The notes under the pieces were generated by a model. That model had not been told where the DNA came from and did not search any database. It saw only the letters and a program-made list of their open reading frames with translations. From the NCBI RefSeq assembly GCF_010550675.1, contig NZ_JAAGOA010000018.1, positions 1 to 64,000 of the forward strand: a stretch of 64,000 nt of DNA, read 5' to 3'. This stretch comes from Phytoactinopolyspora halotolerans. Its GTDB lineage: Bacteria > Actinomycetota > Actinomycetes > Jiangellales > Jiangellaceae. Made by a program: the position numbers and the translations under genes. Positions 13,167 to 45,487 of this stretch are shown here, piece by piece. Each line of letters starts with the position of its first letter. The first letter of the stretch is position 1.

Positions 13167-13829
13167 GAAATGACCGACATGAGGGTGGAGCACGCGGCGC
13201 CGGACGGCAGCCCGGTCGGGGTGTACCTGGCCATTCCGGCTGGGAAGGAACCGGAGATCATCCACAGCTCGATCGCTTCGGACGCGGACATCCTGGAGCT
13301 GGGATGTGGCGTCGGTCGGTTGACCCGCGTACTGCTGGCATACGGCCACGACGTGGTCGGTGTGGACAATGACCCGGTGATGCTGGCCCACGTGACCGGC
13401 GCCGAGACTGTCCACGCCGACTTCTACGACCTTGACCTGGGCCGCCGATTCGGGGCCGTCGTCGCCGCCAGCCACCTGGTCAACACGCCGGGTGAGGCCA
13501 ACCGGATCCGGCTGCTCGAGGTCTGCGCCCGCCACGTGCGCGACGACGGCGTGGTGCTCGTCGAACGGTATCCCCCGGCCTGGTCCGAGGACCCGCACGA
13601 CAGCTCCGGCATGACCGGGCCCGTGGCGTCCGCCGTGTCCGTTCACCGAAAGGGTCCCGACGGCTTCTCGGCGACCGTGGAGTACCGGCTCGGCGAGCGC
13701 CGCTGGCAGCACGACTTCACGGCGGAGCACGTCGACGACGCGATGATGATCGACGCCGCCGCCAAGGCCGGGCTGAGGTTCGCCGATTGGGTCGACGACG
13801 CGCAGACCTGGGCCCGCCTCCTCCCATGA
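13155..13829 (+). CDS. Class I SAM-dependent methyltransferase
   Basis: Up to 224 aa. The SAM-binding motif ILELGCGVGRLTRVLLAYG is near residue 47, followed by VVGVDNDPVMLAHV and a LVNTPGEANRIRLL segment. The substrate cannot be told. The longest ORF starts at an ATG overlapping the sigma stop (TGATG) inside a palindromic element; ATG 13182 with GGGAGG 11 nt upstream is a credible alternative. Its stop TGA lies inside the next palindrome at 13824. Confidence 0.85.
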   Translation: MTWEEMTDMRVEHAAPDGSPVGVYLAIPAGKEPEIIHSSIASDADILELGCGVGRLTRVLLAYGHDVVGVDNDPVMLAHVTGAETVHADFYDLDLGRRFGAVVAASHLVNTPGEANRIRLLEVCARHVRDDGVVLVERYPPAWSEDPHDSSGMTGPVASAVSVHRKGPDGFSATVEYRLGERRWQHDFTAEHVDDAMMIDAAAKAGLRFADWVDDAQTWARLLP

Positions 13830-13878
13830 TCATGAACACTAACCGTGCTATGTGAACGGTTAGTGTTCATGATCATGG
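13824..13878. repeat. Palindromic element, family A, copy 1 (between convergent genes)
   Basis: Perfect 23-bp arms, beginning CCATGATCATGAACACTAAC, around a 9-nt loop; 55 bp in all. Both convergent genes stop inside it: the methyltransferase with TGA at 13827-13829 and the GH5 gene with TAA at 13860-13862. In the minus-strand reading it is fully open and encodes MIMNTNRSHSTVSVHDHG. It may also act as a bidirectional terminator stem. Confidence 0.93.
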
Positions 13879-18999: not shown

Positions 19000-20298
19000 A
19001 TGCGCCAGATGACCCGACGGCAGACCCTGAAGGCCGCGGCCGTGGCGGCTCCGACACTCGGTTTGTGGGCGTGCGGGAACGATGACTCGACCGGCGGCGA
19101 CGGCGGCCCGGTGGAGCTGCGTTACGCCTTCTGGGGCGGGGACAGCCGAGCCCAGATGACACAGGAGATGATCGACGAGTTCGAGGCGGAGAACGCCGAC
19201 ATCGACGTCAGACCCGACTATTCCGATTTCGGTGCCTACTGGGACAAGTTGGCCACCAGTGTCGCCTCCGGTGACGCGCCGGACATCATCACCATGGGCG
19301 GCGCCTATCCGAGCGAGTACGCCGGCCGCGGGAGCCTGCTGGACCTCGGCCAGGTGAGCGACATCATCGACACCGACCGGATCGACGCGGCCGTCCTGGA
19401 CAACGGGATGATCGACGGCTCGCTCTATGCGCTGCCGACCGGTGTGAACACCTATGCGGTGGTGGCGAACCGGGCGCTGTTCGACGAGGCAGGGGTCGAC
19501 TTCCCGGATGACCGAACCTGGACCTGGGATGATTTCCTGCAGATCTGCGTCGCGCTGAGCGAGTCGCTCGGTGACGACCGGTTCGGCACCCAGGACGCGA
19601 CCAACCACAACACCCTGATGCTGTGGGCGCGGCAACGCGGTGAATCGTTGTACACCGCTGACGGCGGGCTGGGGATATCCGCCGAGTCGGTCGCCGAGTG
19701 GTGGGAGCTGGCGCTGCAGCTGCGGGATCGGGGCGGCGCTCCGTCGGCGACCCTGACGGCCGAGCTGGAGAGCCAGAACGCGCCCGAGCAGACCCTGATC
19801 GGGACCAACTCGGCGGGGCTGTCGCTGATCTGGTCCAACGTCCTCGATGTTCTCCGGCAAGCGTCCGGTGAGGAACTCGTCCTGCTCAAACCTCCGGGCG
19901 AGAGCGAGGGCCAGCCGGGCACGTGGCTGGGGCCGTCGATGTTCTACACCATCTCCGCGGACAGCGACCATCCAGAGGAAGCGGCGGAGCTGGTCGACTT
20001 CATGCTGAACGATCCGGATGCGGCTGAGGCGTTCCTGACCGACCGTGGTCTCCCGGTGAACCCGGAGGTCCGTGAGGAGATCCTGGACGAGCTGACCCCC
20101 GGGCAACGGGTCGAGGCCGAGTTCCTGACCCGGATGGAGAGCGAAGTCGGTGAGGCTCCGCCCCCGCCGCCGGTGGGGTCGAGTGAGACCGCGCTGATCG
20201 TGTCCAGACTTAACAGCGAGGTGCTCTTCGACCGGCTGACCCCGCAGGAAGCGGCCGAGCAGTTCGTCGCCGAGACCGAGGCGGCATTGGGCGTATGA
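19000..20298 (+). CDS. ABC sugar-transporter substrate-binding lipoprotein (copy 2)
   Basis: 432 aa. The N-terminus MTRRQTLKAAAVAAPTLGLW contains a twin-arginine-like RRQTLK and a lipobox ending at Cys, so it may be a Tat-exported lipoprotein. The mature part LRYAFWGGDSRAQMTQEMID and the PTGVNTYAVVANRALFDEAG segment mirror copy 1. ATG 19000 follows CGGAGG. Its stop overlaps the glycosidase start (ATGA), tying the two. Confidence 0.93.
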   Translation: MRQMTRRQTLKAAAVAAPTLGLWACGNDDSTGGDGGPVELRYAFWGGDSRAQMTQEMIDEFEAENADIDVRPDYSDFGAYWDKLATSVASGDAPDIITMGGAYPSEYAGRGSLLDLGQVSDIIDTDRIDAAVLDNGMIDGSLYALPTGVNTYAVVANRALFDEAGVDFPDDRTWTWDDFLQICVALSESLGDDRFGTQDATNHNTLMLWARQRGESLYTADGGLGISAESVAEWWELALQLRDRGGAPSATLTAELESQNAPEQTLIGTNSAGLSLIWSNVLDVLRQASGEELVLLKPPGESEGQPGTWLGPSMFYTISADSDHPEEAAELVDFMLNDPDAAEAFLTDRGLPVNPEVREEILDELTPGQRVEAEFLTRMESEVGEAPPPPPVGSSETALIVSRLNSEVLFDRLTPQEAAEQFVAETEAALGV

Positions 20299-22517
20299 CA
20301 GCCGAACCGGCCCGGGACAGCGGAAATCTCGGCGAGGGGATCGACCGGCAGGCGCTGGTCGAGCGGCACACTGTGGTGTTGCGAGAAGCGGACGTCCGCT
20401 CGCCTCTGTCCGTCGGCAACGGTGAGTTCTGCTTCACCGCGGACATCACCGGCCTGCAGACCTTTCCCGACCACTATCCCGTGGAGTCCCGGGACGGCAC
20501 CGGACCCGGGACACTGCTGGGCACGCAGGCGCAATGGGGATGGCACTCGACGCCTGGTGGGGCGAGCTACCGGGTGGACGACATGTGTGTCGGATACCAG
20601 ACACCCGGCCGTGCCGAGCCGGTGCCGTATGTCGATATGTCGGGCACGATCGGCGGGACCGGGGATCGCAGTGACTCCGCCGCCGAACTGTGGCTGCGCG
20701 CCAACCCGCACCGGCTGGATCTGGGCCGGATCGGGTTTCGGCTACTCGATTCGGATGGGCGCGTGCGGCGTCTGACGTTGGCAGACGTCGAAGACGCGGT
20801 TCAGCGGCTCGATCTGTGGCGGGGCATCCTGCACAGCTCGTTCACCATCGCCGGGTACGCCGTGAACGTGGAGACGGTCTGCCACCCGGAGCGGGATGTG
20901 CTGGCGGTGCGGATCCGTTCGGATGCCTTGCGTGAATCTCGGGCGGCGGTGGGGATAGCGTTTTCCTACGGCGCGGAGCGCTGGCATGACGCCGCCGACT
21001 GGTCTCGCCCGGACGCGCACCGCACCACGGTCCGTCGTCGCGACGGCGGCTGGCAGGTGGACCGCGAGCTGGACGCCACCGGTTATCAGGTCGAGATCGC
21101 CGCATCGCCGGGTGTGGCGCTGGACCAGGTGGGGCCGCATGAGCTGCGCGTGACCTCGTCGTCGGCAGCCATGGAGCTGGTCGTGGGCTTCACCGACGGC
21201 GGCGGGCCGGACCGCGCGGCTTCGGCGTCCGCACCGCTCGTGCTGCCGTCGTCGTTCGACGACGTCCGCTCCGCCGCGGCCGAACACTGGCGACGGTTCT
21301 GGACTGAGGGTGCGGCCGTAGACCTGGACGGCAGCACCGACGACCGGGCGCCGGAGCTGGAGCGGCGCGTCGTGCTGTCGCAGTACCTGACGGCGATCAA
21401 CGGGGCGGGGTCGGTGCCGCCGCAGGAGACCGGATTGGTCTGCAACTCGTGGTTCGGCAAGTTCCACCTGGAGATGGTGTGGTGGCACGTCGCCCACTTC
21501 GGCCTGTGGAACCGGCCCGGATCGCTGGAGCGAGTGCTGCGCTGGTACCGGCGAGCGTCCGAGTCCGGACGGGAGACGGCCAAGCGCCAGGGTTACGCGG
21601 GTGTCCGCTGGCCGAAGATGGTGGGCCCGGACGGCAGGGAGAGCCCCAGCCCGATCGGCCCGTTCCTGATCTGGCAGCAGCCGCATCCGATCTATCTCGC
21701 AGAGCTCCTCTACCGAAACCAATCCATGATCATGAACAGTAACCGTGCACATAGCACGGAAAGTGTTCATGATCATGGAAGTGGGCGTGTGCTGGAGGAG
21801 TACGCCGGCATCGTCTTCGAGACGGCGGAGTTCATGGCGAGCTTCGCGAGACCGACCTCCCGCGGCTACGAGCTGGGCCCGCCGGTGATCCCCGCGCAGG
21901 AGTCGTACGGATCGATGCGGGCGCGGGCCAGCAACCCGACCTTCGAGTTGGCCTACTGGCAGTGGGCACTCGGCGTCGCCCAGCAGTGGCGTCGTCGCCT
22001 GGGGCTGGCGCCGGACCCGCATTGGGACGCCGTCGCGCACGGCCTGGTGCGGCCACACGTCCGGGACGGCGTGTATGCGGCGATCGACGTCGAACCATAC
22101 ACGATCCGCACCGATCACCCGTCGATGCTGTGCGGGTTGGGCTTTCTGCCCCGCACGCCGTTGATCGAGCCGGAGACGATGCGGGCCACGCTGCGTGACG
22201 TGCTCGACGACTGGGACTGGGACAGCACCTGGGGATGGGACTATCCCGTGCTGGCGATGTGTGCTGCCCGGCTGGAGGAGCCGGAGCTGGCGGTGTCAGC
22301 GCTGACGATGGAGGTGGGCAAGAACACATATCTGGCGAGCGGGCACAACCGGCAGACGGACTCGCTGCCGCTGTACTTGCCAGGAAACGGAGGTGTTCTG
22401 GCTGCCGTGGCCCTCATGGCGGCCGGATGGGATGGCATGCCGGACCGGCATGCTCCCGGATTTCCACACGATGGGCGGTGGACCGTCCGGCACGAAGGGC
22501 TGATCCGTAGCCCATAA
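20295..22517 (+). CDS. Six-hairpin glycosidase-like enzyme with in-frame palindromic insert
   Basis: 740 aa, no signal peptide. An N-terminal beta-sandwich-like half begins VRSPLSVGNGEFCFTADITG; the C-terminal (alpha/alpha)6-type half includes CNSWFGKFHLEMVWWHVAHF and YLASGHNRQTDSLPLYLPGN, resembling GH65/GH95-type and uncharacterised six-hairpin glycosidases. Residues 477-495 (from SMIMNSNRAHSTESVHDHG) are encoded by a 55-bp palindromic element lying between LLYRNQ and RVLEEYAG, where relatives would be expected to have a short loop between helices. The frame is kept and both halves look intact, so the enzyme may still fold. Probable intracellular processing of imported sugar. Confidence 0.88.
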   Translation: MTAEPARDSGNLGEGIDRQALVERHTVVLREADVRSPLSVGNGEFCFTADITGLQTFPDHYPVESRDGTGPGTLLGTQAQWGWHSTPGGASYRVDDMCVGYQTPGRAEPVPYVDMSGTIGGTGDRSDSAAELWLRANPHRLDLGRIGFRLLDSDGRVRRLTLADVEDAVQRLDLWRGILHSSFTIAGYAVNVETVCHPERDVLAVRIRSDALRESRAAVGIAFSYGAERWHDAADWSRPDAHRTTVRRRDGGWQVDRELDATGYQVEIAASPGVALDQVGPHELRVTSSSAAMELVVGFTDGGGPDRAASASAPLVLPSSFDDVRSAAAEHWRRFWTEGAAVDLDGSTDDRAPELERRVVLSQYLTAINGAGSVPPQETGLVCNSWFGKFHLEMVWWHVAHFGLWNRPGSLERVLRWYRRASESGRETAKRQGYAGVRWPKMVGPDGRESPSPIGPFLIWQQPHPIYLAELLYRNQSMIMNSNRAHSTESVHDHGSGRVLEEYAGIVFETAEFMASFARPTSRGYELGPPVIPAQESYGSMRARASNPTFELAYWQWALGVAQQWRRRLGLAPDPHWDAVAHGLVRPHVRDGVYAAIDVEPYTIRTDHPSMLCGLGFLPRTPLIEPETMRATLRDVLDDWDWDSTWGWDYPVLAMCAARLEEPELAVSALTMEVGKNTYLASGHNRQTDSLPLYLPGNGGVLAAVALMAAGWDGMPDRHAPGFPHDGRWTVRHEGLIRSP
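21724..21778 (+). repeat. Palindromic element, family A, copy 2 (inside a gene, in frame)
   Basis: 55 bp, same length as copies at 13824 and 45433. Arms CCATGATCATGAACAGTAAC and, read on the other strand, CCATGATCATGAACACTTTC. It has diverged by several bases and is open in the host frame (MIMNSNRAHSTESVHDHG). The peptide aligns with those of the other copies. Confidence 0.93.
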
Positions 22518-45432: not shown

Positions 45433-45487
45433 CCATGATCATGAACACTTACCGTTCACATAGCACGGTAAGTGTTCATGATCATGG
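45433..45487. repeat. Palindromic element, family A, copy 3 (between convergent genes)
   Basis: 55 bp, arms beginning CCATGATCATGAACACTTAC and ending GTAAGTGTTCATGATCATGG. It starts one base after the membrane-protein stop and contains the amidohydrolase stop (TGA at 45482-45484). The plus reading is open and encodes MIMNTYRSHSTVSVHDHG. Confidence 0.93.

Follow-up and report, generated by a model that had tools for sequence, protein, structure and literature searches.

An in-frame 55-bp palindrome in an actinobacterial glycosidase gene belongs to a dispersed family associated with genes for a predicted AbiEi–nuclease fusion protein

A 55-bp palindrome lies in frame within an intact glycosidase gene of the soil actinobacterium Phytoactinopolyspora halotolerans and belongs to a dispersed family, here called family A, whose association with a gene for a predicted AbiEi–nuclease fusion protein is well supported. 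The window, i.e., the whole 64,000-nucleotide stretch analysed, comes from an actinobacterial genome of 7.3 Mb whose nearest named relatives are Phytoactinopolyspora species, and the palindrome is shared by species of this genus. The explanation that we favour, with moderate confidence, is that the palindrome is the dispersed cognate site of the AbiEi-nuclease and has been spread by this protein in the manner of REPs and REPtrons; we infer that the protein likely binds the palindrome and would also cut and copy it.

The palindrome in the glycosidase gene (CCATGATCATGAACAGTAACCGTGCACATAGCACGGAAAGTGTTCATGATCATGG; Table 1) has a folding energy of −35.2 kcal/mol, compared with −10.1 for shuffled sequences (z −9.9). 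Twelve homologous glycosidases from the same genus and family, at 43–75% identity by tblastn and 45–78% in multiple alignment, lack the insert and its residues, which bears out the preliminary description of an intact gene that has taken up a palindrome without loss of frame. The gap in these homologues is exactly 18 residues (17 in the two most distant of the 12 compared), and the DNA alignment shows a clean net gain of 54 bp, a multiple of three. Thus, the insertion at residues 477–495 stands, while the length of 19 residues first given for it becomes a net 18. The enzyme had rightly been called a six-hairpin glycosidase, since a Foldseek search with its predicted model found GH95/GH65 (alpha/alpha)6 enzymes (E 1.5e-14) despite the lack of a Pfam match for the gene. 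The overall pLDDT of this model is 59, with values below 50 at residues 483–494, so that the position of the insert between two helices is the sole feature used; it lends slight support to the suggestion that the insert forms a surface loop. P. endophytica, the nearest relative in the glycosidase tree, carries no insert, which suggests that the insertion probably took place after the split from this species. No Rfam match was found within the window, and a search of phages, plasmids, and viral contigs returned no match.

Table 1. Palindromes and the interrupted gene in the window (positions within the 64,000 nucleotides)
Feature	Position	Strand	Remarks
Family-A palindrome	13824..13878	.	Convergent-gene junction; holds both stop codons; orthologous site occupied in P. 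endophytica
Six-hairpin (alpha/alpha)6 glycosidase gene	20295..22517	+	GH65/GH95-like fold; 740-aa ORF; carries palindrome insertion
Family-A palindrome	21724..21778	.	In-frame insert, glycosidase residues 477-495; core 21727-21775, 49 nt
Family-A palindrome	45433..45487	.	Between convergent genes; holds stop of minus-strand gene; orthologous site occupied in P. endophytica
Second palindrome family, ~94 nt, CCTAAATGATCATGTGAAGTAGG...	35681-35806		Gene 3′ end; ATGATCATG motif near end
Second palindrome family, ~94 nt, CCTAAATGATCATGTGAAGTAGG...	61024-61150		Gene 3′ end; ATGATCATG motif near end
Second palindrome family, ~94 nt, CCTAAATGATCATGTGAAGTAGG...	62712-62860		Gene 3′ end; ATGATCATG motif near end

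Searched with exact arms (TGATCATGAACA N14-44 TGTTCATGATCA), family A numbers 99 copies in the P. halotolerans genome, 43, 34, and 91 in three congeners, and 119 in P. halophila (genome G005), which is placed in another genus by the taxonomy used. Exact-arm copies are absent from G004, a fourth congener, and from Jiangella-like genomes, and the reversed control pattern gave no match in any genome searched. Among 254 sampled copies, 10 lie inside genes, 99 between convergent, 121 between tandem, and 21 between divergent genes, with three at locus edges, as determined with a home-made gene caller in fetched DNA that is about 88% coding. Convergent placement stands at 41%, versus 18% for background gene gaps. 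Of 319 gene 3′ ends next to a copy, 300 are found between −40 and +60 nt from it, the median distance being −3 nt, and at 162 of the 319 the stop codon falls inside the element, being most often the TGA of TGATCA. Some sites are polymorphic between species, with the palindrome present in one and absent in another, and no target-site duplication was resolvable at the empty sites, where flanks have diverged. A few copies at empty sites may represent a third palindrome family. The distant Bacillus renqingensis has one perfect palindrome whose 12-base arms are the same (L142:7465), with no family seen, perhaps by chance.

The two sister copies in the window had been read as open frames encoding near-identical peptides. 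An open frame is indeed present in each, a property that is uninformative because nearly any family-A copy has one of its three frames open; the peptides are not translated, because both copies occupy convergent gene 3′ ends and each contains the stop codon of an adjacent gene. The search for further in-frame copies did recover other in-gene cases in the genus, but the emphasis on coding copies does not hold, since about 95% of the 254 sampled copies are extragenic, at gene 3′ ends, and about 4% are in genes. All of these approximately 10 in-gene copies are in the one open phase, a regularity partly built into the gene caller, and one of the 10 calls (L283) adjoins an assembly gap and is doubtful. 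Gene-breaking copies showed no excess in a flank-phase test, the seven same-phase cases in closed phases being about what is expected by chance from neighbouring gene ends.

The hosts of these inserts bear names that we take from Pfam matches and general knowledge of the families. GlcE, an FAD-linked oxidase, carries the insert at the same codon in P. halotolerans and P. endophytica, and P. halophila GlcE carries one in the same loop, while the GlcE proteins of G001, P. limicola, and more distant homologues are free of it. The P. halophila insertion is probably independent, because its sequence groups with insert-free ones, with weak tree support. An acyl-CoA ligase shares its insert between P. 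halotolerans and P. endophytica, and further hosts are a urea carboxylase in P. endophytica and, in P. halophila, PaaD and an ABC exporter. In all four of these proteins, the ligase included, the insert separates one Pfam domain from the next. The copies of P. limicola have a 50-nt core, which would probably shift a reading frame, and none of 25 was seen inside a gene.

The association with a particular gene became apparent outside the window, on contig C11 of the P. halotolerans genome (L218), where two palindromes spaced by 1117 bp enclose one gene, whose stop codon is provided by the second palindrome. This gene, encoding about 320 residues, is bracketed by family-A palindromes in four species, namely P. 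halotolerans, P. endophytica, G001, and P. limicola, and its neighbours differ. In Jiangella, two palindromes are located 1.04 kb apart, and a 65%-identical homologue, predicted beforehand, was then found exactly between them. Matching palindromes upstream and at the stop codon were found in 16 of 22 homologues at 55% identity or more, from Jiangellaceae and one other family; three have the upstream palindrome only, and three have none, one of them near a contig end. The outer edge of the upstream palindrome is located at about −110 to −260 relative to the gene. Under strict automatic criteria, the pair is present in 13 of 29 homologues versus 3 of 763 background genes taken from palindrome-enriched DNA (Fisher p 5e-18), a p value that overstates independence, since the homologues are related to each other. 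Between non-syntenic loci, homology spans the palindrome–gene–palindrome unit and ends there (e.g., at −157/+53 for L354 vs. L352).

Palindrome type tracks protein clade, with the exception of P. limicola, where the protein flanked by family A falls in another clade and may have switched partner. P. halophila is the case that fits the favoured explanation least: despite its many copies, it has only a distant homologue with another palindrome. The gene may have been lost, may lie in an assembly gap, or may not be needed; the copies of P. halophila show the lowest uniformity among the four species measured (inner identity 0.66), which fits loss but does not prove it. Distant homologues at about 30% identity include one with a matched pair lacking TGATCA (L370, G005:C59:121565) and two with an upstream palindrome only (L369 and L371), which suggests that the pairing of gene and palindrome is older and broader. 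In P. endophytica, a block with the bracketed gene is bounded by palindromes on both sides, at a place where P. halotolerans has one solo palindrome and another gene. Comparison of P. endophytica L280:6789-9419 with L197:7485-8040 revealed a 2.6-kb non-homologous block, including an unrelated gene, with palindromes at both sides. Palindromes may therefore also carry or exchange cargo genes.

The bracketed gene product matches AbiEi_4 in Pfam (39.6 bits, cut-off 25) and, weakly and below the cut-off, DUF559; no NCBIfam model for it was found. In its AlphaFold2 model (pLDDT 87), residues 4–197, with an N-terminal winged helix-turn-helix, match the AbiEi antitoxin (6y8q, Z 12.9), and residues 200–305 match the endonuclease-like NGO0050 (3hrl, Z 10.7), I-Bth0305I (3r3p, Z 8.9), and DNA-bound Vsr (1cw0, Z 7.5). 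D236, E247, and D262 are invariant, and D249 and H254 nearly so. As modelled, the protein joins two folds, an AbiEi fold, which comprises a winged helix-turn-helix and a nucleotidyltransferase-like domain, and a nuclease fold of Vsr/EDxHD type, the nuclease part being assigned from fold and conserved residues because the DUF559 score lies below the cut-off. No AbiEii-like gene was recognised by eye among the neighbours of four copies of the gene. AbiEi, from the type IV toxin–antitoxin system AbiE, binds two 23-bp inverted repeats with a 3-bp spacer, 49 bp in total, upstream of its own gene (PMC3985639), and the core of the family-A palindrome, with CCCATGATCATG at both ends in the flank and core profile and a nested ATGATCAT cap, is likewise 49 bp. 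The present protein shares the fold and the upstream palindromic site with AbiEi, but has a fused nuclease domain, and its site is also found at the gene 3′ end and dispersed genome-wide. The modelled C-terminal fold is that of I-Bth0305I, which forms a dimer on a target nearly 60 bp long (PMC3943268), and of Vsr, whereas here the gene is freestanding, the N-terminal part is AbiEi, and the presumed target is a repeated palindrome.

Variation among copies bears on whether the palindromes are mobile, are sites used by the host, or act as RNA. Orthologous copies keep their outer arms, whereas inner stems are species-specific (ACCG..CGGT in P. halotolerans, GACC..GGTC in G001, and GCCG..CGGC in P. 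limicola). Dispersed copies are nearer to the copy that flanks the gene in their own species (inner identity 0.77–0.85) than to that of other species (0.37–0.73). Orthologous copies may or may not retain an individual identity: their inner parts are 0.70 identical, permuted pairs reach 0.67, and 197 of 2000 permutations gave a value as high. Co-variation was seen at some stem positions, with position 13 showing it in all four species tested. It is conceivable, but unlikely, that the dispersed palindromes are operators or chromosomal marks used by the host and bound by the AbiEi-type protein, kept at gene ends by selection and moved by no activity of the protein. The near identity of outer arms in 15 orthologous pairs from P. 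halotolerans and P. endophytica (99.7%, with inner parts at about 70%) would agree with such a role, although this identity is partly ascertained by the search pattern, and so would the scarcity of decayed copies and the operator-sized core. However, the clean, recent glycosidase insertion and the polymorphic sites show gain, operators would not be expected at 3′ ends or within coding sequence, and the fact that homology ends at the palindromes where neighbourhoods are unrelated implies that the unit moves. We give still less credit to the idea that these are ordinary REP-like hairpins acting in RNA, as bidirectional terminators or stabilisers of mRNA 3′ ends, with the in-gene copies being accidental. 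Strong hairpins and crowding at gene 3′ ends and convergent junctions are what it would lead one to expect, but stem mismatches on the transcribed strand comprise 40 G.U and 40 A.C, and no loop-orientation bias was found among the copies tested. This equality and lack of bias led us to reject selection at the RNA level and point to DNA as the constrained form, with a side role as terminator possible. Moreover, a terminator needs no sequence-invariant arms, and the bracketing of a gene would go unexplained.

REP-like palindromes are present in many bacteria and, to our knowledge, HUH-type RAYT is the enzyme with which they have been linked to date. Family A resembles REPs and REPINs with their RAYTs in being a short palindrome with about 100 copies, which are found outside genes, next to gene 3′ ends and at convergent junctions, and rarely within genes, and also in having loops that serve as targets of insertion sequences (ISs) and a gene bracketed by the repeats. 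REPs, however, are defined by a GTAG or CGTC tag at one end (PMC3733652), while family A has neither this tag nor a Y1/HUH transposase, being a 49–55-bp full palindrome with the nested cap, and it is not filed under REP/RAYT because its partner, the AbiEi plus Vsr/EDxHD-like protein, is unrelated to RAYT. A Y1/HUH transposase (PF01797) was found in 0 of 22 genomes, with control genomes positive. ISs are also described as inserting into REPs (PMC1525189). A MITE whose transposase comes from a DDE insertion sequence is a very improbable source of family A: inverted arms, clean insertion, and the IS30-like sequence in loops of at least nine P. halophila copies are compatible with it, yet the unit is a full palindrome and not two terminal repeats, no target duplication was resolvable at the diverged empty sites, and entry of the IS30-like element into the loop is the relation of an element to its target. 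Unpaired arms, considered as ends of a larger transposon, proved to be mostly slightly mutated copies or, in P. halophila, copies with this element in the loop, and no IS ending in the CATGATCATGAACA arm was found among them. At the P. halophila contig ends L338–L346, a repeated sequence, probably an IS30-like element targeting loops, interrupts the loop of at least nine family-A palindromes, and an adjoining fragment encodes an HTH_38 domain. Similarity to Rickettsia palindromic elements (RPEs) had been proposed from the in-frame insertion in an open gene with an encoded peptide, and this feature, shared with RPEs and the Wolbachia WPEs found in genes for functional proteins, does hold. RPEs, however, measure 100–150 bp, and in R. 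conorii nearly half of them fall within ORFs (PMC3767692, PMC10969869), in comparison with approximately 55 bp and 4% for family A, which has no sequence relation to them, occurs in a different phylum, and has its own associated gene; true RPE membership was thus rejected on length and genic share, and we grant it next to no credence.

Palindromes of other kinds were also observed. The second family in Table 1 has about 17 copies in 1.1 Mb of the P. halotolerans genome and has probably spread recently, since it is nearly absent in relatives; its gene partner may be one of two further homologues of the bracketed gene in this genome (C23:62505 and C45:171776). Palindromes of 51–59 nt capped by ATGATCATG, with lineage-specific inner sequence, occur in the class-level genomes G026, G065, and G234 and in a Jiangella-like genome (g3), and the capped pattern matches 24 of 393 class genomes. 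A wider palindrome superfamily probably exists.

In the preferred explanation, i.e., spread by the AbiEi-nuclease, the palindrome in the promoter region would act as operator of the bracketed gene, by analogy with AbiEi, with a second copy at the stop codon. The protein would bind the palindrome and cut it or a related structure, and repair would copy the palindrome, sometimes together with the gene, into new sites, as has been proposed for REPs with RAYTs and as homing genes enter their targets. Gene 3′ ends would be the sole places where most landings survive. Within a gene, a landing would survive in the stop-free phase, where it lengthens the protein by 18 codons that a loop or interdomain linker can accommodate, the glycosidase insertion being one such survivor. 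It appears slightly more probable than an even chance that these are an undescribed class of mobile DNA, in which AbiEi-nuclease genes with an operator palindrome at both ends spread non-autonomous copies, some as in-frame inserts, and in which the palindrome is lineage-specific and enzyme and site co-evolve. Within a literature search that lay outside most subscription journals, no description of such a pairing was found.

The shared GlcE insertions, the recurrent one in P. halophila GlcE, and the fresh one in the glycosidase are natural tests of protein tolerance to an 18-residue insert. We know of no mover of RPEs and, if the proposed explanation is true, the origin of RPE-like coding inserts would become testable. 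Moreover, a second, unrelated protein family would have its own palindromes, representing a new route of palindrome movement, and one mobile unit would bring together AbiEi, a DNA-binding fold of the defence type, and a nuclease fold of the homing type.
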